A stretch of 64,000 nt of DNA. It comes from an uncultured Verrucomicrobia subdivision 3 bacterium. GTDB taxonomy: Bacteria; Verrucomicrobiota; Verrucomicrobiia; Limisphaerales; UBA11358. The number at the start of each line of letters is the position of its first letter. The first letter of the stretch is position 1. Below the pieces are notes generated by a model. That model was not told where the DNA came from and did no database searches. It worked only from the letters and a program-made list of their open reading frames with translations. This document shows positions 11,123 to 63,255 of this stretch, in pieces. A program made the position numbers and the translations under genes. The stretch lies in assembly GCA_903889895.1 (NCBI GenBank), contig CAISYZ010000186.1:1-64000 (forward strand), given 5' to 3'.

Positions 11123-11707
11123 TCAGGGTTTTTGAAGGATTTTGGCAAGCTGGCGGCGGTGAACCGCGGGCTGGCCTTCCGACCAGACGACAAATTGGGA
11201 GCGGGCGATTTTTTGTGCCACCGGCAATTGCGCGGTGAGGCGGCGGCGAATCTGGTCATCGGTCCAGCCCCGGGCCAACAGCCGTTCGCGCTGGGATGAC
11301 GGCGAGCAGGCCAGGCAAATGATTTCATCGAACTGGTTTTCCGCCTGCGTCTCGAACAGCAGCGGGATGACGACGACGGCCAGCGGCCAATTTTCCCGAC
11401 GCCACGTTTCAACCTGCGCCAGCCAGCATTCGCGGATGCGCGGATGCAGGATGTTTTCAAGCTGCTTCCGTGCGGATTCGTCGCCGAAAACTTTTTCAGC
11501 GAGCGCGGCGCGGTTAAGCGAACCGTCGGATAGAATCATTTCGCCGCCGAATTCGCGGCGAATTTCCGCCAGCGCGGGGCGGCCGGGCTGGACGAGTTCG
11601 CGGGCCAGTTCATCCGTGTCCACCACCCGCGCGCCCAGCGACAAAAGAAAACCGGCGGCGGTGGATTTGCCCATCCCCACGCCGCCGGTCAAACCGAGGA
11701 GCTTCAT
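11123..11707 (-). CDS. coaE: Dephospho-CoA kinase
   Basis: 194 aa; MKLLGLTGGVGMGKSTAAGFLLSLGARVVDTDELAREL...HPRIRE, P-loop GGVGMGKST. Confidence 0.95.
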   Translation of the reverse strand: MKLLGLTGGVGMGKSTAAGFLLSLGARVVDTDELARELVQPGRPALAEIRREFGGEMILSDGSLNRAALAEKVFGDESARKQLENILHPRIRECWLAQVETWRRENWPLAVVVIPLLFETQAENQFDEIICLACSPSSQRERLLARGWTDDQIRRRLTAQLPVAQKIARSQFVVWSEGQPAVHRRQLAKILQKP

Positions 11708-11722: not shown

Positions 11723-14275
11723 TTACGGACCGGTGACCGCCCGGTAGAACCGGTGCGCAAAGTTGGTGGCATCAAAGTTGGTGAACGTGAAGGGCTCAGT
11801 ATTCGTCAGGATGGGAATCCACGAAAGCAGGTTCGTGGAGGCCTGGATGATGACGGACTGGCCGGGCGCGTTGGTGATGCTCAACTGGAAGCCGCCGCCC
11901 GACCCACCCAGAACGGCGGACAATTGCGGGGCCGGCGGATAGGCGACATTGACAAGAGCCGAGGCGGAATTGTTGTCCGGATTGGGATCGGGCGTGGACG
12001 CCTGGGCGATGGCCGTGGCCTCAACGGTGCCGGCGGCGGCCGGCGTCTGGACGGTGAGCGTCAACGAGGCTCCGGCCGTATTGGTCAGGCCGTTGGTGGT
12101 GACCGACCAGGAAACCTGGGAGCCTTCGACGAGAATCTGATTAGCCAGCGTCGCGTTGCTGGAGAGCAGGCTGGCACCGGACGGCAATGTGACGGAGACC
12201 AGCACGTTGCTGGAGGTGCAATAGCCGTAGTTGGTGACGGTGAGGCTGTAAACCACATTGGAACCGGGCAACGCATTGGTCGGGCTGACGGACATGGTCA
12301 CACCCAAATCCGCCACGAGGCCGACGGGGTTGGCCAGCGTCAAGGTGATGAACCAGCCGTTGGAAATCATGCCGCCGAAGAGCGTCGGGGAATCATCCAT
12401 CACAAACAACGCCCAGGTGCCGTTGGGGCTGCCGCCGTTCACGGCGGAAAGCGTGGCGCCATAGGGCGGCGGCGGCGGAGAAATATGCAGCGCCAAATTA
12501 TAGTTGGCCCCCGTGGTGAGGGCGTTGATCAGATTGGTGCCGTTGGGCGTGCCCAGGCCGGTGCACAGGTCATAGTTTGTCACCGCATAAAACAGGTTGG
12601 GGCTGCCGCTCCAAGTGTTGTTGCCGGTCGTGATGTCATTAAAACAGTTGGTGTAGGTCGAAATGCCGGCAATATGGTAGATGGCCGGATTAATAAAACC
12701 GATGGCCCCACGTCCGGAATTCGTGCCCTGCTGGTTGATCAAGGAGGTGAAAGCCGCCCACAACGGAGACGCACAACTGGTGCCACCGACCTGATATTCC
12801 ACCCCGCCATCGGCGATCACGAGCACATTATCCGCCGTCAGGGCGACATCGGGGAAATTGCGATAGGTCGTGGAACCCTGGCAAGCCGTCATGCTGACAT
12901 TCGTCTGCCAATAAGGAATCTTGTAATAGGTGCTGATGCCGCCGCTGCTGCCAATCCCGTCGGCACCGTATTCAATGCCCCAATTCCAAACGGTCTCAGA
13001 AATTTTGGCCGAAGCGGTCGGGGTCATCGTCAGCGTGGTGCCACCCACGGAAGTGACATAAGCGCTGTCGGCGGGCGTGCCAAAGCCAAACGGGCTGTCC
13101 ACCGTGCCGGCGGGATAGGCACAGCTGTCGCCGGCGGCCACAAAGAAAGACTGCCCCTGCAGGGCCATCTGCTGGAAAATGGCATCGGTGGTGGCTGACG
13201 GTCCACCGGTCCAGCCCCAAGAACAGCTTACCTGATTGGCGAGGTCGTCCGTGGCAATCTTGTTCAACACGTCGTTGGGATGAAAGTTATTAGGGTCGCC
13301 TTCATACACAATGATTTTGGCCAGCGCCGGCGCCATGGAGACGGCCATCTCGATGTCCAAGGAGACTTCCACCTCGCCGCCGTTGCCGGTGGGAGCGCCG
13401 CTGAAACCATCCAGCAAAACATTTTGCAGCGGAATATTGGTGCGACCGGCCAGCGTTTCGTAGGCCTGAATGTCACTGGCGTTATAACCATCAAACTGCA
13501 CCAGCGCCACACTTTGAATGGCGCCATTAAGGGACGAGCCCGGGATGTAGGCATTGCGAAAGTCATTGCCAACATAGGTGCCAAACGGACCGGAACCGGT
13601 GTTGTGCTTGGCCGTGGGGACCGGCAATTTGGGAATATGGGCCTGCGAAGTCACGTCGGCCGATTGCGTCAACGGCCTGGCTTGGTAATGGGCCTGCGGA
13701 CGGCGGTAGCTGTCCAGACCGCTAATGTCTTGAACCACCAATCCCGCCGGCACCGAGGGCTCGCTGTCCGGCGCATAGAAATCGCGGTTCTCGCTCGGAT
13801 GATGATATGTATGCAGCTTGATTTGAAACGCCTGCTCAACATCCGAGGATTTGCCGCTGACATCCACCAGCAGCCGGTTGGAATACGTGGTGGTCACGGT
13901 CAACCCGTGCTGTTTGGCAAACGCGACAACCGCCTGATAATCTTTTTCCGTGGGGCTGAATTGATCCGCAAACTGCGCCGGCGTCAGAAATTTATGATAG
14001 TTCGGACTGGCCGGATCATAAACCTCCTGAAGCAGATTGGTGAGCGCGGCCTGATTGCGCAAGGCCAGACCGATGGCCAAATGCAAGGTTGTATCCCCGG
14101 CCAGTTGTGCCTTGACGGGCAACTGCGACACGACGCCGAGGTAATGACCCGGCAACGTCACGCGACCGGCATCTGCCGCCAGCGCGCCGGTGCCGGACAA
14201 CGCCAGGGCCAGCGTCAAACCTGTCATCAAAAAACTATTGCGAATTAAATTCCTCATATAACGATTTCGTTTCAT
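11723..14275 (-). CDS. S53 sedolisin/kumamolisin-like secreted protease fused to the C-terminal half of a P-domain, a DUF11-like domain and a C-terminal module
   Basis: Signal peptide MKRNRYMRNLIRNSFLMTGLTLALALSGTGALAAD; pro-kumamolisin region (NYHKFLTPAQFADQFSPTEKDY); EVSLDIEM, SCSWGW and GGTSCASPLWAA catalytic motifs; then PPPPPYGATLSAVNGGSPNGTWALFVMDDSPTLFGGMISNGWFITLTLA (P-domain second half) and LGVTMSVSPTNALPGSNVVYSLTVTNYG (DUF11-like). Confidence 0.9.
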   Translation of the reverse strand: MKRNRYMRNLIRNSFLMTGLTLALALSGTGALAADAGRVTLPGHYLGVVSQLPVKAQLAGDTTLHLAIGLALRNQAALTNLLQEVYDPASPNYHKFLTPAQFADQFSPTEKDYQAVVAFAKQHGLTVTTTYSNRLLVDVSGKSSDVEQAFQIKLHTYHHPSENRDFYAPDSEPSVPAGLVVQDISGLDSYRRPQAHYQARPLTQSADVTSQAHIPKLPVPTAKHNTGSGPFGTYVGNDFRNAYIPGSSLNGAIQSVALVQFDGYNASDIQAYETLAGRTNIPLQNVLLDGFSGAPTGNGGEVEVSLDIEMAVSMAPALAKIIVYEGDPNNFHPNDVLNKIATDDLANQVSCSWGWTGGPSATTDAIFQQMALQGQSFFVAAGDSCAYPAGTVDSPFGFGTPADSAYVTSVGGTTLTMTPTASAKISETVWNWGIEYGADGIGSSGGISTYYKIPYWQTNVSMTACQGSTTYRNFPDVALTADNVLVIADGGVEYQVGGTSCASPLWAAFTSLINQQGTNSGRGAIGFINPAIYHIAGISTYTNCFNDITTGNNTWSGSPNLFYAVTNYDLCTGLGTPNGTNLINALTTGANYNLALHISPPPPPYGATLSAVNGGSPNGTWALFVMDDSPTLFGGMISNGWFITLTLANPVGLVADLGVTMSVSPTNALPGSNVVYSLTVTNYGYCTSSNVLVSVTLPSGASLLSSNATLANQILVEGSQVSWSVTTNGLTNTAGASLTLTVQTPAAAGTVEATAIAQASTPDPNPDNNSASALVNVAYPPAPQLSAVLGGSGGGFQLSITNAPGQSVIIQASTNLLSWIPILTNTEPFTFTNFDATNFAHRFYRAVTGP

Positions 14276-14280
14276 GCCAA

Positions 14281-17200
14281 TCAAGGGAAGGTGACGGGTG
14301 ACGGCCATTGCGTCGGTTTGTTCGTGCCGGTGACAATCTGACCATTCTGGGTCAGATTCGTCGCCGCCGCGTCGTCAAAGGTGAGCGTTACTTTGGTGAT
14401 CTGATTGCCCGCACCGGCGTGCGACATGATCAACGTGTCTGACTGGTTGGGAGCCACCACCAGCGCGCTCATCTGGCCGGGCTCGTAATGGCTCAAATTG
14501 GTCAAGGTGACGGTGGCCTTGGTGACCACCCCATTCAGACCGCTGATGTTAATGTAGGACGGATACGGACTGGCCACACCGTTCGGATTGATAATGATGG
14601 TCGCCGTATTGGAAACGACCGTCTTCCAGGTGCCGAGCGTGAAGGTGAAGATGGCCGTGCCCAGATTGCTGCTGCCGTTCGACAGATTAAAGTTGGCAAC
14701 AATGTTCTGCGCGTTGGTGCCGTTGGCCACAAATGTATAGGGCTGGAACTTGGCCGCACCGCCCACCGTGAGCAACCCGTAGCTGGCCGACGCGCTAGAA
14801 GCGCCGTTGGTAAAGGTCACGCCGTTGGTAGCCACCAACGTGGCGACGAGGTTGGTTACATTCAGGCCCGCGCTGGCGCGGAAGCCGAAGGCAACCGTAT
14901 TGGTTTCACCCGGATCAATAATACCGTTGGCCGGCGAGAAACCTTCCTTCACCAGCACCGCGCCGGAAGGCACCACCAGACTGCCGCTGACATCGTGGAT
15001 AGTCAGCGTGCTGAAACTCGGATAAATCAAGGCCGCATTCGTCGGGCTGGACAACTGCATCAACACGGTCAAATCCTGCTGGATGGCAGTGTTGTCCAAA
15101 ATGGTCACGCCAAAATTCTGGCTGGTCTGGCCATTTGTAAATACGAGCGTGCCGCTAGCTGGCAGGTAATTCTGGTTGGCCACGGCGGTGCCATTGGTGG
15201 TGGCATAGTTCACGGAAACCGTGGTGTTGGTGTAGCCGGTGCGGAACACGGTGATGTTTGCAACGACATTGGATTTGAGCACCGTGTAAGTCGGGCTGGA
15301 GAACTGCACGCCGCAATTGATGTCCACAATCGTGACCACTTCATTGGTGGGCGCCATCAGCACGCCGGTGGCCGTGGGCTGCGCCAGCACCACGTTGAAG
15401 GTGCGGTTGCCTTCCAGCAAATTGTTGCCAATGATCGGCACGACGATGGTGTTCGTGGCGATGCCGTTGGTGAACACGAGCGTGCCGCTGACGGGAACAT
15501 AATCCGTGCCGGCCACCGCCGTGATGTTGGTGGTGTAATAGCTGACGGAAAGCGGGATGGTGTTGGTGTTCAGCACCACCGGTTCGGCGCTCGGGTTGGA
15601 GCAGACCACGGTGATCAACAGGTTGGTGCCGCTCTTCAAGACACTGACCGCGTTGGTGGTGAAGCTCAAGCCCGCCAAGCTACCCTGGATATACACCAGC
15701 GCGCTGGACGGTTGCACGACCGTCGTGCCCGCAGACGGTCCGGACAGGTTGATGCCGAACGAAACATTGGTCGTAAGCGAGCGGTTGTAGAGCGGAACGG
15801 AAATGGCCGCGACGGTTTCACCGGGATTGAAGGTCATCGTCCCGGTGGACGGGACGTAATTATATCCGGCCACCGCCGTGCCATTGTTGGTGGTCGCGTA
15901 ATTCACCGTGATAGTGTCATTGGTGTTGCCAAACCGCTGGACAAACACCAGCCCAACCGAGTTGGTCTCACTGACGTAGTTGGTGGCCGACTGGAACGCA
16001 AGGCCAGAATTGCCGCTCACAATGGTCACGGTGGCATTGGTCGGTGCGGTCAGCGCCACGCCGGTGGTCGGATTAACCAGATAGACCGAGAAGGTAGTCG
16101 TTTGGAACACCAGCGGATTGTTGATCAGCGGAATCTGGAACGACTCGCTCGTCTGGCCATCCGGAATAGAGACGGTGACCGGGCTATTGACATAATTACT
16201 GCCGGGTGCCGCCGAGCCGGGCACCAGCACATAATTCACGTTGATGTTATCGGAGAAGCCGTTCGTGCGGAGCACCGTCAAATTGGCAAACCCATCCGTC
16301 GAATTCACGACATAATTCGTGGCGCTTAATTGCAACTGGCCCAGCGCAAACACCGTGTCATTGATGGTCAGGGTGGCGTTCGACGGGCTGGTCAGCAAGG
16401 AGCCCAGCACATTCGTCAATTGCAAGCCCACCGTGCGATTGCCTTCCGGAATGGTGTTGTTGATGATCGGAATCTGAACAGTCTTGTCCGTGTCGCCCGG
16501 ATTGAAGGTGACGGTGGCGTTGGTCGGATAATAATCCGTGCCAATCACCGCCGAGCCATTGGTGGTGGTGCTGAAGTTCACCATGCTCGTGCCGCTGGTC
16601 GAGCCCTGCCGGATGATATCAATGGTCGCCACACCGTTGACCGTGTTCTTGGGAATTGTATAGTTCGCTGACAGGAAACTCAGCGTGCTGTTCACATTGA
16701 TAATGGTGAGCACGGCGGTGGACTGGTCGCCCAGACTGGCCGGTGCACTGGGGTTATCCAAAGCCAGATTCACGGTCAGATTGGAGGTGGTGAACAGGTT
16801 GTTGATCACCGGCACAAAAATCTGTTCAAACACTTCGCCCGCCGGGAACGCCAGATTGGTGCTGACCGGCAGGTAGTTAACCCCGGCCACTGCGCTGCCG
16901 CCGTTCGTGGTGGCAAAATTTACATAGACGAGGCCGGAACCGTCGGCATTCGTGCCGCTGGTGCCACCAGTGCGCGCGACCGTGATGATGCCGAAGCCGG
17001 CGTTCTCAGCAATCTGGAAGCTGGCCGAGCTGAACTGGAACGTGCCGGAACCGGTCGCAGAGTTGCCATAGAGCCGGGCGATGTAATCGGCGGCCTGACC
17101 GTTGAACTGCGTGAACGCACCGCCGATGACAATCATGCCGTCGGCCGGTTGGACCACGGCAGCATTGACGGCGCCATTAGCGCCAGCACCAAAGTTGATG

Positions 17201-20200
17201 GTCGGATCCACCACGCCAGTGGACAAAAGGCGGGTCAAGCCGCTGCGGGTGACGCCGTTGGCCCGGGTGAACTGGCCGCCGACTATGATCCGGTTGTCCG
17301 CCTGCAAGACGATGGTTGAAACCGTGCCGTTGATGCCACCGGCCGAATTGGTGACAAACGCCAGGTCCAAGCTGCCGTCAGCATTGAGCCGGGCGAGGTG
17401 GTTGACCGCAACATTGTTGATGTTCGTGAAATCACCGCCGATGAGAATGCCACCGTCCAGCTGAAGTGCGATGGCACGCACGGCGGCGTTGACACTGACT
17501 TTCGCCGCAAAATTGGTGTCCACGGAACCGTTGCTGTTCAGGCGAACCAAATTGGCAACTACCGTATTGTTGAAATTCGTGAAGGAACCGCCCGCCAGCA
17601 CCTGGCCGGCATTGTAGATGGAATTGGTCGGATACGCAGCAAGGGCATAGACCGCGCCGTTGGCGCCAATACCGGTGGCAAACGTCGCATCCACCGCACC
17701 GCTGTTAAACAGGCGGACAATGCCCGGATACGAAGTTCCGTTGAAGGTGCTGAACGCACCGCCTACATATAGCTCACGCGCGCCATTGATGAAGGTTTCG
17801 GCCAGGGCAAAGACGGAATTATCCGCGCCCGAGCCGGGACTGAAGCTGCTGTCCAGCGTGCCGTCCGTCATCAGGCGTGCAATGCGGTTGCGCACGGTGC
17901 TGTTCACGTTCGCAAAGGCACCGCCGATCACTATCCGGTCATCCGTCTGGCTGATCAGGGCATTGACCGAGCCGTCCGCGCCAGCCAGACCATTGAGAAA
18001 GGCCGTATCGAGCGAACCGTCAAGATTCAGACGGGCCACATGACTGCGGCTCGCGCCATCTACCAAACTAAAGCCACCACCGGCCACAATCTGGCCGTCG
18101 GACTCAAGTGCGAGCGCCAGCACACTATTGTTCATGCTGCCGGTGAATGACGGATCCAGCGAACCCGGCGGCTGGTTAAACGACTGCACGTCCACGATGT
18201 TCACCGGCGATGTGACGGGCGAACCCAAGACGGCACCGGCACTCGGAGTGAACAAATTGACCGTAAAGAAGAATGCGCTGGGCGGCGGGTTCGTCTTGCC
18301 GTCATTCAAAATCGGCACGGTGAAGCTGCTGGTCAACTGCCCCTGCGCAAAGTGCAGCACACCATTGGTGGCGACATAGTTCGTGCCGGCAAACGCGGTG
18401 ACATTGGTGGTGGCAAAATTAACCGTCGCCGCCCCCAAGCCGGAGCCCGAACGTGTGACCGTGATGGTGGCATAGCCACCGTTCTCGTTCACCAGATAAC
18501 TGGCGCGGCTAAACTGGAACGTGCCGTTGCTGTTGTCATCCACAATGTTCATGACGGCGTTCGTGACGCCCCCCAGAACCAGCGGCGAATTGGTGCCGTT
18601 CAAGGTGGGGTTGAACAACGCCAGACCGAACTGCTTGTTGGGCGCGCCCACCACGCTGTTGGTCAGGAGCGGGATGCTGACCGTGCGCGGCGAGACATCA
18701 CCGCTATTCCAAGTGAGCGTGTTGGTCGTGCCAAGATAATCCACACCATTGATGGCGGTGCCGTTGGTCGTGGCATATTGCACGGTGAGCGTGCCCTTGC
18801 TGCCGACGGAACGGGTCACGGTAAAGGCGATGGCCTGCGCGCTCAATTTGGCGGTGTAATAGTTGGTGGTCAGGTTCAGGAAGCCCTGATAGTTCGGATT
18901 GATGATGCGCAACACCGCGTTGCTCAAGCCGAGGAAAGCGTTACCACCGCTCGAATCCTGAATGTTGTTCAACAGCAGGTTGACGGTTTTTTCCGCCGTC
19001 GAGATATAGCTGTTTTCCAAGATGTTCACGGTGAAATTATTCAAAGACTGACCGGGGCTGAAAATGAGCGAACCGCTCGCCGCCGAATAATCCGTGCCCA
19101 GCACCGCCGTGCTGCCGTTGGTCGTGGTCTGGTAAGAGACCGTAACCGTGCCGATGGTGCTATTGGTGCGAACCACATTCACCACGGCGGTCGAATTGGT
19201 GGCCGTATAAGTCGGCGAGCTGAAACCAAAGGTGCCGTCCTGATGCCCATTGTCCACGATGGTCAGCGGCGCATAAGATTCACCCAGGGCCACGCCCACC
19301 GGAATGTTCTGGCCGCCAAGATAGAACTGGTCGGCATCCGCCGGATTGGCCATTTGCAGACCCGCGCTCAAGTTGCCGGAGGTCTGGCTGTCGTTGATGA
19401 TGGTGATATTGACGGAGGCCGGACCGTTGAAACCATACTTCAACAACGAGCCATAGGTAGACTGCATGATGCCGGCCGAGCCGAACCAGCCGTCACTGTG
19501 CATACGCGAAGGGTCGTTATATTCCCAATCAATGGGATACAGCGGGGCGACCGAACTGTAGGAATAATCCGCGCCGCTCTGGGCCAAACCCGGCAGCACG
19601 GCAAAATTTGCGGAGGCATAGCCCAGCGCGCCGTTGGTGCGCACCAAGGTGATCGGCTCGGTCAGCTGGGTCTTGTTGACGGCATAACTGGTGGAAACCA
19701 TGCCGATGTTGCCGGGCCCGGGCGTGACGCCGCCAATCAGGCGGGCGACGTTGCTCCGGTTGCGGACACCGTCACGCGACTTGGGTTCAAGGGCCGAACC
19801 ACCTTCGGCAACCCACAGATTCGGATCCGCGAAGCTGGGCAGCAGGCCCCGTTCCTCATCCAGAGTGTCGCGAACGTTATAATCCGCCTGACCACCGCCG
19901 ACTTCCTGGAACGCACCGCCAATCATCACATTGCCATCACCCTGCACCGCCAATGAATAAACAGTTCCCGGCGCATCACTGAAGAGGATGCGCGGCAGGC
20001 CCGCAAACTGGTTGTAGGCCGTGTCCAGGAACGTCGTGTCCAGCGTGCCGTTGGGATAAATCCGCGCGAAGCCGAGGCGGTGCGTGCCGTTATAGGTGGT
20101 GAAGGAGCCGCCGAGATACAGCGTGCCGTCCAGCTGCGGCATGATCGAATAAAGGACGCCGTCCAAACCGGTGCCACAATAAAACGCGTTGTCCAACGAA

Positions 20201-23200
20201 CCATCGGCATTGAATCGCACGATACGGCTGGCGGCGGTGCCGTTGACCGTGAGAAAATTGCCGCCGGCGACAATCTGGCTGTTAAGCTGCCAAGCCAAGG
20301 ACATCACCGCCCCGTCCGCGCCCGAGCCGGGGTTGAATGTGGTGTCGAGCGAGCCGTCAGTGTTCAGGCGGGCGATATTGGAGTAATGCTGGCCGGCGAC
20401 GTTGAACTGGCCGCCCACCATGATGCCCTGGGAAGACTGCGGGATGCTGACCGAGGCGGTGTAGTTCCAACTGGTGCTGGCGTTGGTGGAGCCGCCCTGG
20501 TTCATCACAATCGTGAGAAGATTCGTGGTAAAGCCGCCAACGGGGGCAAACGGCAGCACAATCGAGCCGGGGCCGGTGACATTGCCCGTGTCATAAACCA
20601 ACACGCCGGTGCCCGCCGCGATGTTGGTGTTGCCATAGAAAATCCTCATGTCGTTGGGATTATTCGCCATGTTGTAGTTCACCGTCAGCGTGCCCGCTGT
20701 CAAAGTGCCCAAATTGATGGCCTGATCATCCTCGTTGGTGCTGGATGAGCTTCGGGTAAGGTTGAAAAGCTTCGCCGCCGCCTGCGCCATCGAATAGACC
20801 GGGCCGGTCAGGACATTGCTGGCATTGAAGGTCGTGTCCAGTGCACCGGAGGGCAGCAAGCGCGCTACATAGCTGCAAGGCGTGCCGTTATAGGCGGTGA
20901 AATCACCACCCGCCAGAATGGATCCGTCCGACTGCAGCAGGACGCTCCAGACCGTGCCATTGAATCCTGATCCCGGATTGAAACTGGTGTCCAAAGACCC
21001 ATTGGCTGCAACGAGCGCGATGGAGTTTCGCTGGGTGCCTTTATAGGAACTAAAATCACCGCCGATGAACACTTCGTTAGCCGGGGTCAGCGCCAGCGAG
21101 CGGATGAACTCGCCGTTTTGAACATTGATACCAATGCCGGAATTGAAGGTGGTATCGAGCGAACCATCAGCATTCAACCGGGCCAAGCCATTGACGATAT
21201 GCGCGCTGTTGTTGCCATCCGCATAGGTCGCGAAGGAGCCGCCAATGATGGTCTGGTTGGCCGGCGTCAGCGCCAGTGCATAAACTTCACTGAAAGGATC
21301 GGTGCCGGGATTGACCACCGACGTGCCGAGCGTCAGCGAATTCGTGACGAAGGCCAAATCCACGGCAAAGTCCGGATTATACAACTCATCCACCGAGCCG
21401 GCGGGCGGCACCGTGTCATCAAACAGAATGGTTACCGTGGTTTCCGCCACCATACCGGCCTGAACCGGATTGCCGTCTTTGTCTTCGGTGTAAATCCCGA
21501 TGCGGACGTCCTTGTTGAACGTGTTCACCTGGTTGTTCTGGATGTTGAAATGAATCGGCTGCGACTGGAACGGATTGTTGTTACCACCCGGGAAGGTGAG
21601 CGATCCGTCGGCGCTGGTGAAGTCCGAATTCGTGCCCAAGACGCCGGCGGTGGTTGCCGGGGTTGGCGTGGCATAGTCCGAACCGGCCTGGAGCGGGAAA
21701 TAGATGTTGCGGTCATCCGCGCCGTTCTTGGTCAGGAAGTAATTGTCAAACCGGTAATAGACGGTGGTGGACGCACGGTTCGTGCCCATGCGGTTGACAT
21801 AAACCGTCACCGGGGTGTTGGGGAAATAACTCGGCTCATCGCGGGGCACGCGGTAACAGGCCTTGGAGAAGTTGAATACGCCGTTGGTCGGCTGCAAGTT
21901 CACCGTAACATTGGTGGTATAAGTCGTGTTGGTCACACCCAAGACGACAACCGTGTTGCTGGTGATAAGCTGCGTGCGACTCGGGCCATGTGGATCAATG
22001 TCGCAGTCCAGAATCCGGCAGAGAGCCTGACCGAAAATGTTGTCCACCCGCGGGACCGACACGCTGGTGGTTTCATTAGTGTCCCGCCGCGGATTGGACA
22101 GCACCACCGTGAAGTCACGATTTGGCCGGGAAATCCCGCCGTCATCAATGATGGGCACCACGATGGTCTTGCTCATCTCATAGTCATCAAACACCAGCGT
22201 GCCGCTGATTGGCGTATAATCCACGTTGGACAAGGCCGGCACATCGCCCTGCGTCAGCATATTGGTATAGCCATCTGCCGTGGCATAATCCACCAGAGCG
22301 CGGCCCGACGAACCGGCCACACGGGTCACGGTGACCAAAAGACCATAAACGTCGTGGGTATAATAGGTATCCGTGGTTGACCGATACTCGTCAGCATTGA
22401 CCGGGCCCACGACGCCGTGGGTAAAACCACCGCGGGATGAAATGGAGCCCTCCGTCTCCGCACAATGATACAGAAGGATAGGATTGCCGTTCGTGTCGGT
22501 GATGCCGGTCTGATCCACATCCTCGGACGCAAACCGGAACGCACCGGAGGAATGGTAAGCCCAGTTAATTTGAATCGCCCCCGTGCCAGTGATGGTGAAC
22601 TGCGCGGTCTGGGGATTATAAACCTCGCTCGCTTTCGTATCCGCCGCGAAATAATAAGTGGTGCCCGCCTTGGCATTAAAGCGAAGTCCGCTGGGCCCGC
22701 TGAAGGGCTCGGTATATTGCGAACTCACCGGTTGAAATATGCCACCTTGATTGGTGATGACATTCGGTATCAAGACAATGTAAGGTGGAACATTGGTAAA
22801 ATAAAAGCTGCTGTAACCATTGGTGCTGACCACGCTATTGGTGTTGAAAATATTCTGACCGGTATAGTTGAACTGGGTTTGCGGAAAATTCGGATACAAA
22901 TCATCGTTCGCCGCCACCTGGTTGAGATTACCCAGGCTGGTGCCCGTGAAGACGGCCAGCACAGTGTCCAGTTTGACGCCGTTGGTGCTTACGCTGCCGA
23001 TGGTATCCACCGTCACCTCGCCGTCGGCGGGCGCAGTCCACTGGACCCAGACGGGTGCCGTCGGTGCAAAGCCGGCAATGTTCGGGTCGCCGATTTCCGG
23101 TGCGCCGCCGGTATTATTGATATTGGTGACACCCCAGGTGCCATTGATTACCAGCGGCGTCTCAAAGCTCAGACCGGGCGGCGTGTTGGTGCCGATAATG

Positions 23201-26200
23201 GTCACCGTCTCCACGCTGGGCACAAGCAACTGGCCGGGCGCGGTTGGCGCAGACAAAGTCACGTTAAAGGTCCGGTTGCTCTGCACCGAGTTGTTGATCA
23301 GCAGCGGCACAGTGAAGTAGCCAAGCGACTGTCCGTTGGTGAGCGTGAGCGTGCCGCTGGTGGCGGTGTAATCCGTGCCGGCCACCGCCGTGCCGCCGCC
23401 GGTCGCATAATTCACCGAGACTGGGCCGACATTCGGGTTGGAGGAAATGACCTCAATGATGGCGCTGCCGGCATTGCGATAAACACTCTGAGCCGCCGTG
23501 AGGAAGCTGATGCCCGCATCCGCATCGTGGTCAATCACGGTAGTCACGCTCGGCGCGGTAAGTTGCGCGCCAAGGCTCGGATTAAACAGGCCGACACTGA
23601 AGAACAAATCACCCGTCACAAGCGGATCATGGATGGTGGTGAGGGTGATGGACTTCACGGAATCACCGGGATTAAACGTCAGCAGTGCGTTGGTGACGCC
23701 AATGAAATTGGTGCCGGCCACCGCGGTGCCGTTGGTGGTGGAATAATATACCGTGGTCGTGCCATTGGTGTTGTTGAGGCGGATGACATTCAACACCACG
23801 GAACCATTCACCGTGCCGGAAGGCTCGGTGAAGCTGTTCGTCCCAAGCGCAAAGGCCAGGCCGACGTTGGTGTTGAGAATGGTCACCGTGGCATTGGTCG
23901 GCGTGGCCAACGAGGCACCGCCGGTCGGATTAAACAGGTTCACGTTCAGATATTCCGGCCCTTCCGCCGTGGCGGTGTTGACTGCCTGCACGACAAAGGA
24001 TTTGCTGGTCTCACCATCGGCAAAATTCAGCACGCCATTAGTTGAAAGATATTTCAGGCCGGAAACGGCCGTGCCGTCCTGCGTGTTGAAGCCCACCGAC
24101 ACCGTGCCATAGGAACCATAGGTGCGCTGGACGGTAACATAGGCCGCGGAATAGCCCACCCCACCACCTTCCGTGACGATGTAATTGGTGGCAATGAAAC
24201 TCAGCTGACCGGGGGCATTCACCGTGTCGATGATCGTCAGGGTTGCGTTCGTCGGCGTGGCCAGGACCGGCGGCGTCAGCGAAGAACCTGCGGGATTCGA
24301 CAATTGCAGACCAACGGTCTGATTCCCTTCCGGGATACCGTTGTTGTTGATCGGAATATTAACCGTGACATTCGATACTCCCGGGGCGAACGTCAGCACT
24401 GCATTCGTAGGGGCGTAATCCAGACCGATGGTGGCCGTGCCGTTGGTGGTCGTGGTAAAAAAGACCGAGGCCGAGCCGTTGATGCCGCCGTTGCGGGAAA
24501 CAGTGATCGGGGCCACGCCGTTGACGACATTCTTGGACACCGAATACGTGGCCGAGGAGAAGCTAATCGTCGAGTCGTCATTGGTGATATACAAGGTCGC
24601 AATGGGCTGGTCGCCGATTTCCGCCGGGGCCGTGGGGTTGGCCAGCGCGAGGTTGACCGTCAGGTTGGTCGTCACCACGCCGTCATCCATCACGGGAATC
24701 TTAAAGGTCTTGAGCACCTCGCCCAACGGGAAATCCAGCACATACGGGGACAGGTTGCTGTAGTTGACCCCGCCCACCGCCGAGCCGTCGGTGGCGTTGG
24801 CCGTAATGAACACGTCGCCTGAAGGCGCATTGCTGGTGCCGCCTGTGCGGATGACGGTGATGGTCACATTCGTGCCATCTTCATCCACGCCGTAATCCGA
24901 CGAAGAGAACTGGAAGGCGCCCGAACCGCTGATGGAGCCGCCATAAATCCGCGCAATATACGCATGCGGTGCGCCGTCATACTGGGTGAAACCGCCGGCG
25001 AGAATAATTTTTTCATCAGGCACATTGGTCGGATAGCCATTGATGGTGTCCTCCTGGATGGCCAGCGCCGCGACAAAGTTGTTAGCCCCGGTGCCGAAAT
25101 TGATGGTCGGATCCACCGAGCCATCGGGATTCAGGCGGGTGATGCGGTTACGGGTGACGCCACTGGCGGTGGTGAAACTGCCGCCGACCACAATGCGGTT
25201 GTTGCTCTGGATGGCCAAGGCAAGCACCGCGTCACTGGCACCGACCCCGGGATTGAAGGATGTATCCACCGAGCCGTCCGCATTCAGACGGGCGATGCGG
25301 TTGAACGCCACGCCGTTGACATTGGTGAACAAACCACCGATGACAATCTTGCCATCCAATTGCACCGCAATGGCCCGCACGGAACCGCTGGCTCCCGCAC
25401 CCGGATTGAAAGCCGTGTCCACCGAGCCGTCCACATTCAGACGGGCAATATGATTGAAGTTGGTCACGCCGTTATAGCTCGTGAAATCACCGCCGATGAT
25501 AATCCGACCATCCGGCTGCACCGCGAGAGCATAGACCGTGGCGTTCGCGCCCAAGCCGCCCGCGTTAAAGGTCGTGTCCGGCGGACCGCTCGCGGTCAGT
25601 TCCGCAATGCCGTTGAAGGTGTTGCCGCTGACCGTGGCAAAGGCCCCGCCGATGAGCACCTCGCCATTGACCGGCGATTGGGCGATGGCATAGACCGTGT
25701 TGTCCGCACCGGAGCCCGGCTGGAACAGGCTGTCGAGGGTGCCGTCATAATTCAACCGCGCGACATGGTTCAACACCACGCTGTTCACGTTGGTGAACAG
25801 ACCGCCAATGAGGATGCGCCCATCCGTCTGCACGGCAATGGCCCGCACCGAGCCGTTCGCGCCCATGGCGGAAGAAGGCAGGGAGAAGCCGGCATCAATG
25901 CTGCCATCCGCATTCAACCGCGCGATGTGATAGCGGGTGACGCCGTCCGCCAAGGTGAAGTCGCCGCCGGCCAGAATCTGGTTGTTCGGCTGGAGCGCGA
26001 GGGCATAAACGTTGTTGTTGAACCCGGCCGAGGAATCAAAGGTGATGTCCGAAGAACCTGGTGATTCCTCGACATTGAGCGTGTTGATGATGGTCAACGT
26101 GGCGGTGGCGGGGGAACCAAGATTGCTGCCGCCCAATTGCAGGGTGAGATTCAGCGGCGTGGCGTTGGTGTTGCTGTTGTTGATGATCGGCACAGTGAAA

Positions 26201-29200
26201 TACTGGCTCACCTGGCCGTTGGTAAAGATCATCGTGCCGGAATTGGTCTGGTAATCAATGCCGTTGACCGCCGTATTGTCCAGCGTCGTGAAAGTGTTGG
26301 TAATGGAACCGACGCTGCCACCGAGCCGCACCACCGGGATCAGCGCATAGCCGCCGTTTTTATTGACGGAATAGGCCGCCGTGCTGAACTGCACCGCGCC
26401 CGCCGAATCCACATTGTTGATGGTCAGGGTGGCATTGGTGCCGCCAAACGCCAGCAGCGTGCTGTTGTTGGTGCCATTGACCGTGGAATTGGTCAGGTAA
26501 ATGCCAGCCGTGAGGTTGGCCGTGACCACATGGTCGTCCAATACCGGAATCGCAATGGTCTGCGGCGAAGCGTTGCCGCTATTCCAAGTCAGGATATTGG
26601 TGGAACCGACGTAGTTGATGCCGTTGATCGCTGTTCCGTCGGTGGTGACCACGGTGACGCCGAGCGTGCCACTGCTGCTGCCGGCGCGGTTGACCGTGAC
26701 ATAGAGCACACGGGAATTTTCATTTGTGGCAAAATTAGCCTGAGCAAATTCCAGATGACCATATGAATTGCCATTCGGGTTGATGAGCGTCAGCACCGCG
26801 TTAGTCTGACCGATAGTGGCCCCGCCCGTCGCCCCAAACAGACTTAGGTTGACTGTCTTGTCCGGCTGAACCGAGGTGTATTTACTCTTGGTCGGGATGG
26901 TGAAAGAAGCGCTGCTCTGACCGACGGCAAAGGAAAGAAAATTGGTGCTGCCGGTATAATCCACTCCGTTCGTGGCCGTGCCGTTGCTGGTGGCATACCC
27001 GACCTGCACGGCAACCCCGGTGCCATTGGTGCGGGTAACCGTAATCGTGGCCGTGCTGCCATTTTCCACCACTGAATAAGCCAGCGCACTGTAACCCAGA
27101 ACCCCGGGCAGGGCGTTTACATCAATAATGGTCAACGGCGCGGACGCGCGCGCACCCAAGGCCGCGTCCAACTCAATAAACTCGCCGCCCAGCTTGAAAG
27201 TCGCGCCGGAGGGATTCGACAGCGAGAAGTCAGCGCTCAAATTGCCACTGATGTTGCCACTGTTGGTCACCGTGACATAGACATCCGCTGCCCGCGTAAT
27301 CAGCGGGGTGGTTTGAAAGTTTGGCCCATACACGCTCACCTCATACAGCCAAGCCGCCGCCGTCCAAGCTGTCCCCCAAGTCGGATCATCATAATTAGTG
27401 CTCAAACCAAAATCCGCACCGGTGGCCACGCCCGGACCAGCGGTGGCGGTGTTGGTCGAGAACGTCGCACTGGCAATGCCCAGGTTGCCATTGGTGCGGA
27501 TTAGCGAAACGTAAAGCGAGCCGGCACTGTTGTTAACCGAATACTGGTTGTAAAGAAATTCGATGTTCCCAGGTCCGGGTGTCGAACCACCCACCAACCG
27601 GGCCACATTGCTGCGAGGACGGATGTCATCCCGCGTATAACCGCCGCCGACGCGGTCAAAGGTGCCCCCGATAATCACATTCCCGCCGCTCTCCTCCGCC
27701 AGCGCATAAATGGCATTGCGCGTGTTATAATTGAGCGGATTGAGATAGGTATAGTTGGTGCCGACGGCATCGGGATTAAAATAGGCATTGGGCACGCCGG
27801 CCAAGGCATTGTAAGCTCCATCCATGAAGCTGGTGTCCACCGAACCGTCCGTAAATAGAAGCGCCAGCCCTTCACGCCGGGTCTGGTTGAATGTGGTCAG
27901 ATTGCCGGCGATGAGAATTTCACCATTTGTCTGGAGCAGCATGGCATAAATCGTGTCCGAGTCTCCCGTGATCGGATTCAACGTGCCCGTGCCGGGCGAG
28001 AAGGTCAAATCCAGCGTGCCATCCGTGTTCAGCCGGGCCAGACCATTGTAGTTGACCAGGTTGTAATAGGAGAAGGATCCGCCAATCAATATACGTCCAT
28101 CCGTCTGCACCGCGAGCGAATGGATGGTATCCGTGGCAAAAGTATCCGGATTAAAAGTGCCGATGCCCGGCGAGAAGGTCGTGTCGAGCGAACCATCCAC
28201 ATTCAAGCGCGCCACCGCGCCGCTGCTGACGCCGGCAACATTCTCAAACGCCCCGCCGATGAGGACGCGGCCGGAAGCATCGAGGGCAATCGCATTGACC
28301 ACGCCATCCGGACCGATGCCGGGATTGAAGGTGGTGTCCAGTGAGCCGTCCGCATTCAGACGGGCCACCCCCTTCACCATGTTGCCGTTGTAATTGGTAA
28401 ACGCACCAGCGATGTAAACCTGGCCGCTCGGGGCCAGTGCCACGGCCCAGACAATGCCATCCGCACCGGTGCCGGGATTGAAGGTGGCATCCAGCGAGCC
28501 ATCGGTGTTCAAGCGGGCGATGTAATGCCGATTGTTGCCATTGTAGGCGGTAAAATTACCGCCGATGATGATCTTGCCATCCGCCGGCTGCAGGGCCAGC
28601 GCGGCGATGAAATCATTCGGACCGGAACAGGCCGAGTTATACCACGGAGAAAAATCCCCCTGAAAGGCGGGGTCTTGAAAACCATTCGGCAGCAAACGAA
28701 CGATGCGGTTGTATTGCTGCTGGTCAAAGGTGGTAAAGCTGCCCGCAACGATGGCGTCGCCATTCGGCTGCTCGGCCACGGCATAGACCGTGCCGCCACC
28801 GCCGGCCGTGCCGGGAGAAGCCTGAAACGGCGGATTGGAGTCAGACACCCCGTTCTGATTCCAAGTGCGGTCCACCGCACCCGCCGGCTGCTGCCCGCCG
28901 TCGGTATCATTGAAAAGAATGGTCACATTCGCACGGTTGACCTGTCCGACCGTTTCATAGGTATGGGCAGACGGATCGGCAAAATAAATCCGGACGGAAA
29001 TATCCATGTTGAACTCCACCTGACCGTTGTCGAGGATGGGAATGGAAATGGTTTGTGGAGTCGTAACATTGGCGCCCCATGAAACCGTGCCACTGACCGG
29101 CGTAAAGTCAGTATTCGGGGTGGCATAGTCTGAACCAGCCTGCAGCGGAAAGGTGTCAGCCGGATTATAGCCAATGGTGCCCGTGGGGTCAGTGGTATAA

Positions 29201-30774
29201 TCTATGGAAACCGACTGCGCAAGATTTGGCGACGTGCTGCGCAACACGCTGATAACGGCGTTACCGCCGTTTACATCCTTATCTACGCGGAAAGTGGCGC
29301 GCTCCAAGTTAAGCGCATCCAAGCCGGCAGATGGATACCGCGTGCTTTCCACCGTCACCACAGTCTGGGTGATGGTGCCCAGCGTGGGCGGGATCAATGT
29401 GGACGGCTCCTGCGAATCCAAACGCGGGTTGGAAAGAATCAGATAAGGAGCGACAGCCGGGAGTTGCGTCTTGCCAATAAGACCCACATTTTGGGTCACC
29501 GGCAAAATCACATCCTCATTCAGCACCTGATTATCGAAAACAATCGTGTTGGTGCCAGCGGTCAGACCAGAATTATTGAGCACGATTGCATTGGTCAAAT
29601 TGACGGTATAGCTGACCAGACTGGGATTCCCCAGATTGGTAACGCTAAATGAACCATTGGTGGCGGAGTAGGTGATAATGGTCATCTCGCTAAACGTATT
29701 GGTTGTGGAGAAGACGATGTTGTAGTCGGTGGTGTTGGTCACCGGCGGCAACAGCACCTGCGTCAGGTTCAGAGCATTGGTCACTGAATTGGTAAGAACA
29801 GTGGTGGTAATGTAATCGTAGGTTTTACCTGACGTGTTGGTGGCAACGTTGCCATTGTTGGGATCCGGATAACGCACGCCATTGTAATAAACAAAGGTGT
29901 TGGTGGTGATGGTATTGGTGGTGAAGACGATGTTCTGAACATTGGTGGCGGTCGGCAGAACTACCGTATAATCCACCAACGCCCGGCCATAACCCGGACT
30001 CGGACGGGTGACGGTGATCCGCGCGCCGAGAACACTCTTATTTACGGTTGCACCATCCTGCGCCACGGGCGAGCTGGATTCCCGTTCGCTATAGACGTAG
30101 TTCGCCGTGGAAAATTGGAAACCGCCGGTCGGAATCGTCGCAATCTTGGCATCCCAGTTCAGAACATAGGGGCCGGCGTTGTCGTTGGGGGCGCTGCCGT
30201 CATCCCAACTTTCAACCGCGAGGTAATAGGTGGTGCCGGCCACCACGGGCAGGTTCACCTCGCTGTAGGCATTGCCCAGCCCGTCCACCTGGCCATCATC
30301 GTCAGAAATGAGGTTGGTCAGGCTGCCGTCGCACATGGTGACCACCCCGGGAGCATTGGTGCTCGTCCAAACTGACAAAAGGAAATCAAGACCGGAACCA
30401 CTGCCCGCGGTGTCCGCCTCCAGCGTCCCGTTGGCCGGCGCCGTCCACGCATACCAGACGGTATTGGTGATATTTTCCACATTATATTCGGGATCATAAA
30501 CCGCGTTGGTTTCACAAGGCTCCAGGGTGGCCAAGGTGTTATCACCATTCGTGCTGCCATAGTTTGCAGTCAAAATGGTGGCGTTTGCAAAGTTATCGTT
30601 CGTCGGCTGGGCGGCGGCGAGGCCGGCGGCCAGCAGAAAGGCCGCCGCACCGGCAAGTCGCAGCCAGCGGGCGGGACGCACGCGGCAAATCATCATCAGG
30701 CTGGCAAGTTGGTTTCGCATCTTTTTCACAAAATTATCTCCGATGTTTCCGGCGGCTCGGCCACCAAGGTTCAT
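14281..30774 (-). CDS. Giant secreted/surface protein (about 5480 aa) with Calx-beta domains, delta-60/DUF5122 propeller repeats and a truncated C-terminal P-domain
   Basis: Continuous ORF; signal peptide (probable GTG start near 30729: VKKMRNQLASLMMICRVRPARWLRLAGAAAFLLAAGLAAAQ); many DGSLDTTFNPG delta-60 motifs; many TVTRTNG...DYxxxSGTLxFxxGxxxxxFxVPIxxD Calx-beta motifs. Confidence 0.95.
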   Translation of the reverse strand: MNLGGRAAGNIGDNFVKKMRNQLASLMMICRVRPARWLRLAGAAAFLLAAGLAAAQPTNDNFANATILTANYGSTNGDNTLATLEPCETNAVYDPEYNVENITNTVWYAWTAPANGTLEADTAGSGSGLDFLLSVWTSTNAPGVVTMCDGSLTNLISDDDGQVDGLGNAYSEVNLPVVAGTTYYLAVESWDDGSAPNDNAGPYVLNWDAKIATIPTGGFQFSTANYVYSERESSSPVAQDGATVNKSVLGARITVTRPSPGYGRALVDYTVVLPTATNVQNIVFTTNTITTNTFVYYNGVRYPDPNNGNVATNTSGKTYDYITTTVLTNSVTNALNLTQVLLPPVTNTTDYNIVFSTTNTFSEMTIITYSATNGSFSVTNLGNPSLVSYTVNLTNAIVLNNSGLTAGTNTIVFDNQVLNEDVILPVTQNVGLIGKTQLPAVAPYLILSNPRLDSQEPSTLIPPTLGTITQTVVTVESTRYPSAGLDALNLERATFRVDKDVNGGNAVISVLRSTSPNLAQSVSIDYTTDPTGTIGYNPADTFPLQAGSDYATPNTDFTPVSGTVSWGANVTTPQTISIPILDNGQVEFNMDISVRIYFADPSAHTYETVGQVNRANVTILFNDTDGGQQPAGAVDRTWNQNGVSDSNPPFQASPGTAGGGGTVYAVAEQPNGDAIVAGSFTTFDQQQYNRIVRLLPNGFQDPAFQGDFSPWYNSACSGPNDFIAALALQPADGKIIIGGNFTAYNGNNRHYIARLNTDGSLDATFNPGTGADGIVWAVALAPSGQVYIAGAFTNYNGNMVKGVARLNADGSLDTTFNPGIGPDGVVNAIALDASGRVLIGGAFENVAGVSSGAVARLNVDGSLDTTFSPGIGTFNPDTFATDTIHSLAVQTDGRILIGGSFSYYNLVNYNGLARLNTDGTLDLTFSPGTGTLNPITGDSDTIYAMLLQTNGEILIAGNLTTFNQTRREGLALLFTDGSVDTSFMDGAYNALAGVPNAYFNPDAVGTNYTYLNPLNYNTRNAIYALAEESGGNVIIGGTFDRVGGGYTRDDIRPRSNVARLVGGSTPGPGNIEFLYNQYSVNNSAGSLYVSLIRTNGNLGIASATFSTNTATAGPGVATGADFGLSTNYDDPTWGTAWTAAAWLYEVSVYGPNFQTTPLITRAADVYVTVTNSGNISGNLSADFSLSNPSGATFKLGGEFIELDAALGARASAPLTIIDVNALPGVLGYSALAYSVVENGSTATITVTRTNGTGVAVQVGYATSNGTATNGVDYTGSTNFLSFAVGQSSASFTIPTKSKYTSVQPDKTVNLSLFGATGGATIGQTNAVLTLINPNGNSYGHLEFAQANFATNENSRVLYVTVNRAGSSSGTLGVTVVTTDGTAINGINYVGSTNILTWNSGNASPQTIAIPVLDDHVVTANLTAGIYLTNSTVNGTNNSTLLAFGGTNATLTINNVDSAGAVQFSTAAYSVNKNGGYALIPVVRLGGSVGSITNTFTTLDNTAVNGIDYQTNSGTMIFTNGQVSQYFTVPIINNSNTNATPLNLTLQLGGSNLGSPATATLTIINTLNVEESPGSSDITFDSSAGFNNNVYALALQPNNQILAGGDFTLADGVTRYHIARLNADGSIDAGFSLPSSAMGANGSVRAIAVQTDGRILIGGLFTNVNSVVLNHVARLNYDGTLDSLFQPGSGADNTVYAIAQSPVNGEVLIGGAFATVSGNTFNGIAELTASGPPDTTFNAGGLGANATVYALAVQPDGRIIIGGDFTSYNGVTNFNHIARLNVDGSVDTAFNPGAGASGSVRAIAVQLDGKIVIGGLFTNVNGVAFNRIARLNADGSVDTSFNPGVGASDAVLALAIQSNNRIVVGGSFTTASGVTRNRITRLNPDGSVDPTINFGTGANNFVAALAIQEDTINGYPTNVPDEKIILAGGFTQYDGAPHAYIARIYGGSISGSGAFQFSSSDYGVDEDGTNVTITVIRTGGTSNAPSGDVFITANATDGSAVGGVNYSNLSPYVLDFPLGEVLKTFKIPVMDDGVVTTNLTVNLALANPTAPAEIGDQPIATLYITNDDSTISFSSATYSVSKNVVNGVAPITVSRNGGINGSASVFFTTTTNGTATIGLDYAPTNAVLTFAPGVSNVTVNIPINNNGIPEGNQTVGLQLSNPAGSSLTPPVLATPTNATLTIIDTVNAPGQLSFIATNYIVTEGGGVGYSAAYVTVQRTYGSYGTVSVGFNTQDGTAVSGLKYLSTNGVLNFADGETSKSFVVQAVNTATAEGPEYLNVNLFNPTGGASLATPTNATVTILNTNVGLAFALGTNSFTEPSGTVNGSVVLNVIRLNNTNGTTTVYYSTTNGTAVAGTNFIGVTNALLTFNPGDSVKSITLTTIHDPLVTGDLFFSVGLFNPSLGAQLTAPSVTTVIDHDADAGISFLTAAQSVYRNAGSAIIEVISSNPNVGPVSVNYATGGGTAVAGTDYTATSGTLTLTNGQSLGYFTVPLLINNSVQSNRTFNVTLSAPTAPGQLLVPSVETVTIIGTNTPPGLSFETPLVINGTWGVTNINNTGGAPEIGDPNIAGFAPTAPVWVQWTAPADGEVTVDTIGSVSTNGVKLDTVLAVFTGTSLGNLNQVAANDDLYPNFPQTQFNYTGQNIFNTNSVVSTNGYSSFYFTNVPPYIVLIPNVITNQGGIFQPVSSQYTEPFSGPSGLRFNAKAGTTYYFAADTKASEVYNPQTAQFTITGTGAIQINWAYHSSGAFRFASEDVDQTGITDTNGNPILLYHCAETEGSISSRGGFTHGVVGPVNADEYRSTTDTYYTHDVYGLLVTVTRVAGSSGRALVDYATADGYTNMLTQGDVPALSNVDYTPISGTLVFDDYEMSKTIVVPIIDDGGISRPNRDFTVVLSNPRRDTNETTSVSVPRVDNIFGQALCRILDCDIDPHGPSRTQLITSNTVVVLGVTNTTYTTNVTVNLQPTNGVFNFSKACYRVPRDEPSYFPNTPVTVYVNRMGTNRASTTVYYRFDNYFLTKNGADDRNIYFPLQAGSDYATPTPATTAGVLGTNSDFTSADGSLTFPGGNNNPFQSQPIHFNIQNNQVNTFNKDVRIGIYTEDKDGNPVQAGMVAETTVTILFDDTVPPAGSVDELYNPDFAVDLAFVTNSLTLGTSVVNPGTDPFSEVYALALTPANQTIIGGSFATYADGNNSAHIVNGLARLNADGSLDTTFNSGIGINVQNGEFIRSLALTPANEVFIGGDFSSYKGTQRNSIALVAANGSLDTSFNPGSGFNGTVWSVLLQSDGSILAGGDFTAYNGTPCSYVARLLPSGALDTTFNASNVLTGPVYSMAQAAAKLFNLTRSSSSTNEDDQAINLGTLTAGTLTVNYNMANNPNDMRIFYGNTNIAAGTGVLVYDTGNVTGPGSIVLPFAPVGGFTTNLLTIVMNQGGSTNASTSWNYTASVSIPQSSQGIMVGGQFNVAGQHYSNIARLNTDGSLDTTFNPGSGADGAVMSLAWQLNSQIVAGGNFLTVNGTAASRIVRFNADGSLDNAFYCGTGLDGVLYSIMPQLDGTLYLGGSFTTYNGTHRLGFARIYPNGTLDTTFLDTAYNQFAGLPRILFSDAPGTVYSLAVQGDGNVMIGGAFQEVGGGQADYNVRDTLDEERGLLPSFADPNLWVAEGGSALEPKSRDGVRNRSNVARLIGGVTPGPGNIGMVSTSYAVNKTQLTEPITLVRTNGALGYASANFAVLPGLAQSGADYSYSSVAPLYPIDWEYNDPSRMHSDGWFGSAGIMQSTYGSLLKYGFNGPASVNITIINDSQTSGNLSAGLQMANPADADQFYLGGQNIPVGVALGESYAPLTIVDNGHQDGTFGFSSPTYTATNSTAVVNVVRTNSTIGTVTVSYQTTTNGSTAVLGTDYSAASGSLIFSPGQSLNNFTVNILENSYISTAEKTVNLLLNNIQDSSGGNAFLGLSNAVLRIINPNYQGFLNLTTNYYTAKLSAQAIAFTVTRSVGSKGTLTVQYATTNGTAINGVDYLGTTNTLTWNSGDVSPRTVSIPLLTNSVVGAPNKQFGLALFNPTLNGTNSPLVLGGVTNAVMNIVDDNSNGTFQFSRASYLVNENGGYATITVTRSGSGLGAATVNFATTNVTAFAGTNYVATNGVLHFAQGQLTSSFTVPILNDGKTNPPPSAFFFTVNLFTPSAGAVLGSPVTSPVNIVDVQSFNQPPGSLDPSFTGSMNNSVLALALESDGQIVAGGGFSLVDGASRSHVARLNLDGSLDTAFLNGLAGADGSVNALISQTDDRIVIGGAFANVNSTVRNRIARLMTDGTLDSSFSPGSGADNSVFALAETFINGARELYVGGAFSTFNGTSYPGIVRLFNSGAVDATFATGIGANGAVYALAAYPTNSIYNAGQVLAGGSFTNFNNTVVANLVRLNSNGSVDTNFAAKVSVNAAVRAIALQLDGGILIGGDFTNINNVAVNHLARLNADGSLDLAFVTNSAGGINGTVSTIVLQADNRIIVGGQFTRANGVTRSGLTRLLSTGVVDPTINFGAGANGAVNAAVVQPADGMIVIGGAFTQFNGQAADYIARLYGNSATGSGTFQFSSASFQIAENAGFGIITVARTGGTSGTNADGSGLVYVNFATTNGGSAVAGVNYLPVSTNLAFPAGEVFEQIFVPVINNLFTTSNLTVNLALDNPSAPASLGDQSTAVLTIINVNSTLSFLSANYTIPKNTVNGVATIDIIRQGSTSGTSMVNFSTTTNGSAVIGTDYYPTNATVTFNPGDTDKTVQIPIINNTIPEGNRTVGLQLTNVLGSLLTSPSNATLTINDTVFALGQLQLSATNYVVNSTDGFANLTVLRTNGFSDNINVNYVLVPGSAAPGSNYVNSPVTVSIPDGQTSESFQIPLINNPLVFQTTTFSVYLVNPTTGVALTAPTNATVTIVSGNSGLAFQSATNYVSETNSVGLVFVQRFGNTNDTITVNYATTNNGTAVAGYNYVPSTGTMTFNPGETVAAISVPLYNRSLTTNVSFGINLSGPSAGTTVVQPSSALVYIQGSLAGLSFTTNAVSVLKSGTNLLITVVCSNPSAEPVVLNTNTIPLSVSYYTTNITAVAGTDYVPVSGTLVFTNGIATNTIVVPIIGNNLLEGNRTFNVVLAQPTATGVLMAPTNEVVTIVDINCGVQFSSPTYTVLKSNVVANITVFRTGYTNTTVSVNYATTNGTAVANQNYLPASGTLVFTNGQTSQNFGVTILDNTAIQQDLTVLMQLSSPTNAALIYPSFSTLTIHDVSGSLVVPSGAVLVKEGFSPANGIIDPGETNTVAFGFRASAGLNVTNLVATLVATNGVTFTNGASSASASYGLLTVGGAAKFQPYTFVANGTNAQNIVANFNLSNGSSNLGTAIFTFTLGTWKTVVSNTATIIINPNGVASPYPSYINISGLNGVVTKATVTLTNLSHYEPGQMSALVVAPNQSDTLIMSHAGAGNQITKVTLTFDDAAATNLTQNGQIVTGTNKPTQWPSPVTFP

Positions 30775-36660: not shown

Positions 36661-36671
36661 ACAAATGATGT

Positions 36672-40290: not shown

Positions 40291-40310
40291 ATAGTCTCGC
40301 TATAAAAAGT

Positions 40311-42584: not shown

Positions 42585-42636
42585 GGCAATGTGAGGTTCT
42601 TCAAAGTGGCGCGGTTCAATAAGGAATTTTTAACAG

Positions 42637-43422: not shown

Positions 43423-43423
43423 T

Positions 43424-44377: not shown

Positions 44378-44378
44378 A

Positions 44379-60079: not shown

Positions 60080-60222
60080 GCGGGGAAATTAAAGCGGAAA
60101 CCGGATGGCGGAAAGCGGAAAGCGCGCAGCGCAAATTGACATGGCTCGGAGATGGGTTAGCCTTTCGGGAAACATTGGACAAAATCGGGAACGCAAAATG
60201 CTTTTGTCGTCTTAAAACAAAC

Positions 60223-63246: not shown

Positions 63247-63255
63247 GTTTGAACC

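Follow-up and report, generated by a model that had tools for sequence, protein, structure and literature searches.

How one protein domain comes to be encoded by two adjacent genes, and why both of its parts would then be kept, is the question raised by a locus in the 64,000-nucleotide stretch of DNA analysed here (the window). A giant ORF ends within a P-like domain, and the expected rest of that domain lies on the next gene, behind the catalytic domain of an S53 protease.

Organization of the locus

The features of the locus, all on the minus strand, are listed below by position in the window.

30857..46232, minus strand: upstream syntenic block u1–u9, including PilM (u9), a secretin C-terminus (u5) and a 5'-3' exonuclease (u4)
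14281..30774, minus strand: giant secreted protein of 5497 aa, truncated at its C-terminus
14617..14985, minus strand: Ig-like module immediately N-terminal to the split P-domain, located with an HMM from split orthologues
14281..14616, minus strand: N-half of the P-domain, forming the giant's C-terminus and ending TFP-stop
11723..14308, minus strand: S53 protease gene, an ORF of 861 aa (14308/14257..11723)
12482..14280, minus strand: inserted block of leader, signal peptide, pro-kumamolisin and S53 catalytic domain, missing from the empty sites of genomes G046 and G107
13709..14113, minus strand: Pro-kuma_activ domain (PF09286), residues 66–200, E 1.9e-31
12506..13576, minus strand: S53 catalytic domain, with tetrad E314, D318, D394 and S511
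12323..12478, minus strand: C-half of the P-domain, PPPPPYG...FITLTLA, on the protease gene
11954..12310, minus strand: DUF11 domain (PF01345), once part of the giant
11726..11935, minus strand: C-terminal domain, once the giant's end; secreted proteins in these genomes commonly end in a domain of this type
11123..11707, minus strand: coaE, the downstream syntenic anchor

DUF5122 propeller repeats (22 stretches) and Calx-beta domains make up the bulk of the giant ORF. At its end are the Ig-like module and the N-terminal two thirds of a P-domain (...GTNKPTQWPSPVTFP-stop), and the ORF terminates with ...GQIVTGTNKPTQWPSPVTFP followed by TGA. The protease gene has a probable ATG start at 14257 or 14275, 6–24 bases past the giant's stop, and a scan for promoters and terminators between the two genes gave nothing above shuffles. 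The best PDB match of the catalytic domain is kumamolisin (1t1e, E 1.2e-44), and the tetrad, a Ser-Glu-Asp triad plus the oxyanion Asp, is intact in 27/27 orthologues. A variable linker separates the catalytic domain from the C-half (PPPPPYGATLSAVNGGSPNGTWALFVMDDSPTLFGGMISNGWFITLTLA, beginning at base 12478), and the order from there is SPPPPPYG...GWFITLTLANPV, then DUF11, then the C-terminal domain. The sequence-only reading had placed the end of the giant ORF within a P-like domain, the missing rest after the catalytic domain of the next gene, and a signal peptide, pro-kumamolisin and S53 domain between them; the positions and the PF09286 and 1t1e matches agree with this on every point.

Because PilM and a secretin are among the genes upstream of the giant, an export machine may serve it. 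The secretin itself lies in two ORFs in the window (39631–42584, u5 and u6), one of 757 aa with TPR and one of 219 aa comprising the secretin C-terminus, the latter seemingly with its own signal peptide. It is split in most members of the genus seen, fused in G003, G016 and G029, and a single ORF in G107, and may be another case of a conserved gene split within the giant's operon. Two more S53 genes lie in tandem at 59938–63999, the second running off the window.

Conservation of the split

The P-domain is broken at the same residue in 26 genomes of the window's genus, with its second part on a protease gene of about 820–880 codons; the giant ends Phe-Pro-stop in 25 of them and Phe-His-stop in one. 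In every one of the 26 the giant terminates ahead of the protease, whose gene supplies a start and a signal peptide of its own. An intein, or a domain nested within one chain, was rejected, as the host frame is not continuous through the insert in 26/26. The split locus is cut by contig ends in three further genomes (G010, G039 and G044) and has a different protease in another (G035); the split, retained by about 30 of the genus's 49 genomes, is ancient and no recent accident in a single genome. A scan of named genomes found the same split in 25 loci, all from MAGs, mostly labelled Limisphaerales or Verrucomicrobia subdivision 3. The window comes from a MAG that is 76% complete and in 260 contigs, which might suggest an assembly join within that one MAG, but at least 26 genomes, each assembled separately and diverged to about 57% N-half identity, have the same structure. 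This rules out an assembly artefact, and the chance of such a join is negligible.

Some members of the genus are without a giant, with u1–coaE or u4–coaE directly in L213–L224. In three others lacking it (L210, L211 and L212, from G022, G021 and G031 respectively), an S53 gene of 1337–1346 aa with a different tail is located between u1 and coaE, and the S53 gene of G022 clusters with the window's S53 lineage. G034 has a 333-aa ORF similar to the giant's N-terminus.

The halves are complementary parts of one P-domain

We searched 117 relatives with a query composed of the last 234 residues of the giant followed by the protease sequence from the C-half on. Uninterrupted orthologues span the junction (query residues 1–482 of 485 in one ORF of G046, 4–483 in G107, and others too), which bears out the proposal that the two halves, read across the gap, constitute one P-domain. 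They are complementary without overlap or loss, with N rows finishing at FP and C rows starting on the PAPxxPYG side, all within one loop. The window's two halves alone gave no match to PF01483 (P_proprotein) in Pfam. The uninterrupted orthologues do match it, L153 at 28.4 bits against a gathering cut-off of 21 and 37/50 rows of orthologue alignment A3 at E 0.01, and it is because of these orthologues that we count the window halves as P-domain; the profile match expected from the sequence-only reading is thus found with the complete domain and not with the separated halves.

An AlphaFold2 model of the uninterrupted domain of G046 (L153) has a pLDDT of 95.7 and a pTM of 0.90. With the complete domain as a Foldseek query, furin and Kex2 were the top PDB matches (best E 2.3e-4, probability 1.00, TM over the query about 0.5), which we read as matches to their P-domains. 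The N-half contains most strands of the modelled fold, and the split point, near residue 113, falls inside a strand-free stretch (106–121) that is the longest strand-free loop of the P-domain. Modelled together with DUF11, the window C-half has a pLDDT of 43–57 and no strands and DUF11 one of 91–98, the comparison of complete domain and C-half being based on shallow alignments of 25 and 50 rows. The PNGxWxLFV and NGW motifs typical of complete P-domains remain conserved in the C-halves.

Mean pairwise identity is 0.57 for the N-half and 0.60 for the C-half, and 0.44 and 0.47 for DUF11 and the C-terminal domain respectively. The ratio dN/dS, calculated with unsaturated dS only, is 0.08–0.39 for the N-half and 0.11–0.22 for the C-half. 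Both halves are under purifying selection and have one common history.

Unbroken giants and the origin of the C-half

In G046, of the same genus, a single 3246-aa ORF contains the Ig-like module, N-half, C-half, DUF11 and C-terminal domain unbroken, with homologues of u1–u11 upstream and coaE downstream near a contig end. G107, from another family, has u6, u5, u3, u2, u1, one unbroken giant, coaE and glgB, and in G059 and G060 an unbroken giant adjoins coaE as well. Without block 12482–14280, the split pair has the exact module order of these unbroken giants. Uninterrupted syntenic orthologues of the kind that the sequence-only reading proposed to look for are therefore present in G046 and G107; DUF11 and the C-terminal module, which it had supposed the protease to have gained, are instead the giant's severed end.

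In several other families a giant A is followed by an ORF B with P-domains of its own, and then by coaE. We constructed separate trees of the N-parts and C-parts and a concatenated tree, in which both halves group with the P-domains of G046, G107 and giant A (a 32-row clade, support 97/93 in the concatenated tree), apart from those of ORF B. In the C-part tree the split C-parts form one group (support 94). Monophyly of the split halves (89/92, below the program's star threshold) is suggestive, and G107 is closer than G046 to the split clade in the concatenated tree. Since both halves group with giant-A P-domains and away from ORF B, the C-half is the giant's own, which favours insertion over the trimming of two neighbouring genes; the trees thus support derivation of the C-half from the giant and not from the P-domains of other proteases. 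None of the other S53 paralogues that we fetched and searched has a C-half, so the refuting case of an S53–PPPPPYG architecture unrelated to a giant was not encountered among them. One S53 gene (L097, G001:C10) has a giant-type Ig-like module and DUF11, with another domain replacing the P-domain.

It is also conceivable that there was no insertion, and that a separate ancestral protease gene resembling ORF B and the giant were both trimmed, with the C-half remaining from the protease's P-domain. In G056 and L184 the giant is indeed followed by an ORF B of S53 type that has P-domains of its own, but the C-part tree places the split C-halves with the giant-type P-domain rather than that of ORF B, so this source is unsupported by the trees; moreover, two deletions would have to stop at complementary residues, and the entire tail is on the giant in G046 and G107. 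We regard double trimming as highly improbable, and the syntenic empty sites together with the trees uphold the earlier proposal that the S53 block was inserted into a Pro-rich loop, truncating the giant.

A repeat scan found no target-site duplication or direct-repeat pair bracketing the block at the junctions, consistent with an earlier inspection by eye, and thus nothing points to a mobile element as the agent; signals of mobile-element insertion could have decayed since. A few inverted matches of 11–14 nt with one arm near each block end (I3, I5, I6 and I14) are off the junctions and at chance level.

Exchange of the catalytic core

A single clade of split-site S53 catalytic domains is rejected (AU p 0.0021, log-likelihood difference 122), and three supported S53 lineages at the split site are interspersed among other S53 genes. 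The flanks make G012 and G032 sisters (100/100), yet their catalytic domains fall into different S53 groups; those of G006 and G013 likewise belong to different groups. When identities are compared across 325 genome pairs, those of the N-half and the C-half are correlated even though the two are on different genes (Spearman 0.54), whereas the correlation between the C-half and its own catalytic domain is 0.05. Two loci, G035/L146 and L137, have in place of S53 a metalloprotease core with an HExxH motif; the Reprolysin_3 matches are weak to moderate, one at 7.5e-6 (above the curated cut-off) and one at 4.7e-4 (just under it). The leader and signal-peptide DNA of L137 aligns with that of S53 versions with a score of 113, compared with a shuffled maximum of 58. 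That the protease core has been exchanged, at least once for an unrelated enzyme, is well supported, and the observations are best explained if the core was swapped in situ, with the signal peptide on one side and the C-half on the other left as they were.

The presence of three S53 lineages and a metalloprotease at one site could also reflect several independent insertions at a hot spot instead of one insertion with core replacement. However, the split residue is identical everywhere, the C-parts are one group (94), and leader and signal peptide are common to S53 and metalloprotease versions, all of which make repeated insertion very unlikely.

A model for the split domain

We propose that the ancestral locus had one giant gene upstream of coaE, ending with Ig-like module, P-domain, DUF11 and C-terminal domain, and that a secreted-protease gene entered the longest strand-free loop of this P-domain in frame, most likely in a single insertion, in an ancestor shared by much of the genus. 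The giant has since ended with the N-half, and the protease carries the C-half along with the giant's old DUF11 and C-terminal domain. Both halves have been co-inherited and retained, while other S53 lineages, and also a reprolysin-like metalloprotease, took the place of the core. The ancient insertion, with its age and the later core exchange, is well supported.

As to why the halves persist, the C-half is predicted to be disordered alone and structured in the complete domain, and is conserved despite core exchange, from which we infer reassembly with the N-half. Outside the cell the halves may come together, with no covalent bond, as a single P-domain that docks the protease onto the giant; the C-terminal module, docked along with the protease, may anchor or sort. 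The split domain would then be the constant joint and the protease the interchangeable part. Docking by domain reassembly seems to us, on the basis of alignments and structural models, the best explanation of persistence, with a probability of roughly 0.6. The wider proposition of a natural split-domain docking system, in which a beta-sandwich adaptor encoded across two genes lets unrelated protease cores arm a giant extracellular scaffold, is tentative, at somewhat short of even odds.

Perhaps the halves do not pair, with the N-half sufficing by itself as the giant's end and the C-half serving as a linker or cap within the protease protein. Most strands of the AlphaFold2 fold do lie in the N-half, but the C-half keeps positions characteristic of complete P-domains (PNGxWxLFV and NGW), is predicted to be disordered by itself, and is retained even with a protease of an unrelated family; absence of pairing is therefore unlikely. 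Kumamolisin-type proteases self-process, and with a variable linker ahead of the C-half the protease might cut off its own tail, such that the freed C-half, DUF11 and C-terminal domain complete the giant and the protease is delivered free. The metalloprotease versions have the same layout, however, and we found no conserved cleavage site, so we consider tail-cutting quite unlikely and prefer docking of the protease through the reassembled P-domain.

Relationship to known systems

SpyTag/SpyCatcher, engineered from a split bacterial domain, and split inteins are cases of split-protein complementation. The present locus is similar in having complementary beta-sandwich fragments on separate chains, one of them predicted to be disordered alone; it differs in being natural and arising by gene insertion, with no covalent bond or splicing implied, and the binding is putative. 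The S53 part resembles sedolisins and kumamolisins in its prodomain, catalytic tetrad and PDB match, but has a P-domain fragment and the giant's old C-terminus appended. Bacterial proteins with a P-domain on the C-terminal side of a subtilisin domain are known (PMC2605481). The complete orthologues match the proprotein convertase P-domain of furin, Kex2 and bacterial subtilases (PF01483) in both model and fold, whereas here one P-domain extends over two genes and its C-terminal third is behind an S53 or metalloprotease core, not S8. Polymorphic toxins, whose cassettes are exchanged (PMC3482391), likewise have a scaffold part that stays constant and catalytic modules that can be exchanged; the proteins here differ in being secreted proteases, in which the signal peptide and the C-half stay constant and the core between them is exchanged.

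Our search of open-licence papers returned no description of a split P-domain, of UBA11358 proteases or of the present architecture; the parts (P-domain, S53, gene fission and cassette exchange) are known, and it is their combination that is not described in the literature searched. The locus can be seen before the insertion (empty site), after it (split site) and after later cassette exchange, and is a case of how a gene inserted into a domain can turn one protein into a two-part assembly rather than destroy it. If the halves bind, they would be a natural split-protein pair, perhaps usable as a tag.

The slot before coaE is a place of secreted hydrolase head exchange. In other families, ORF B at this slot has S53, S8, M36, M6 or Vps10-like heads on a conserved P/DUF11/C-terminal tail, and the exchange of secreted heads is thus habitual at the locus. 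Loci in which ORF B has unrelated heads are L066, L067, L068, L070, L073, L074, L148, L151, L155, L158, L161, L162, L166, L169 and L184.
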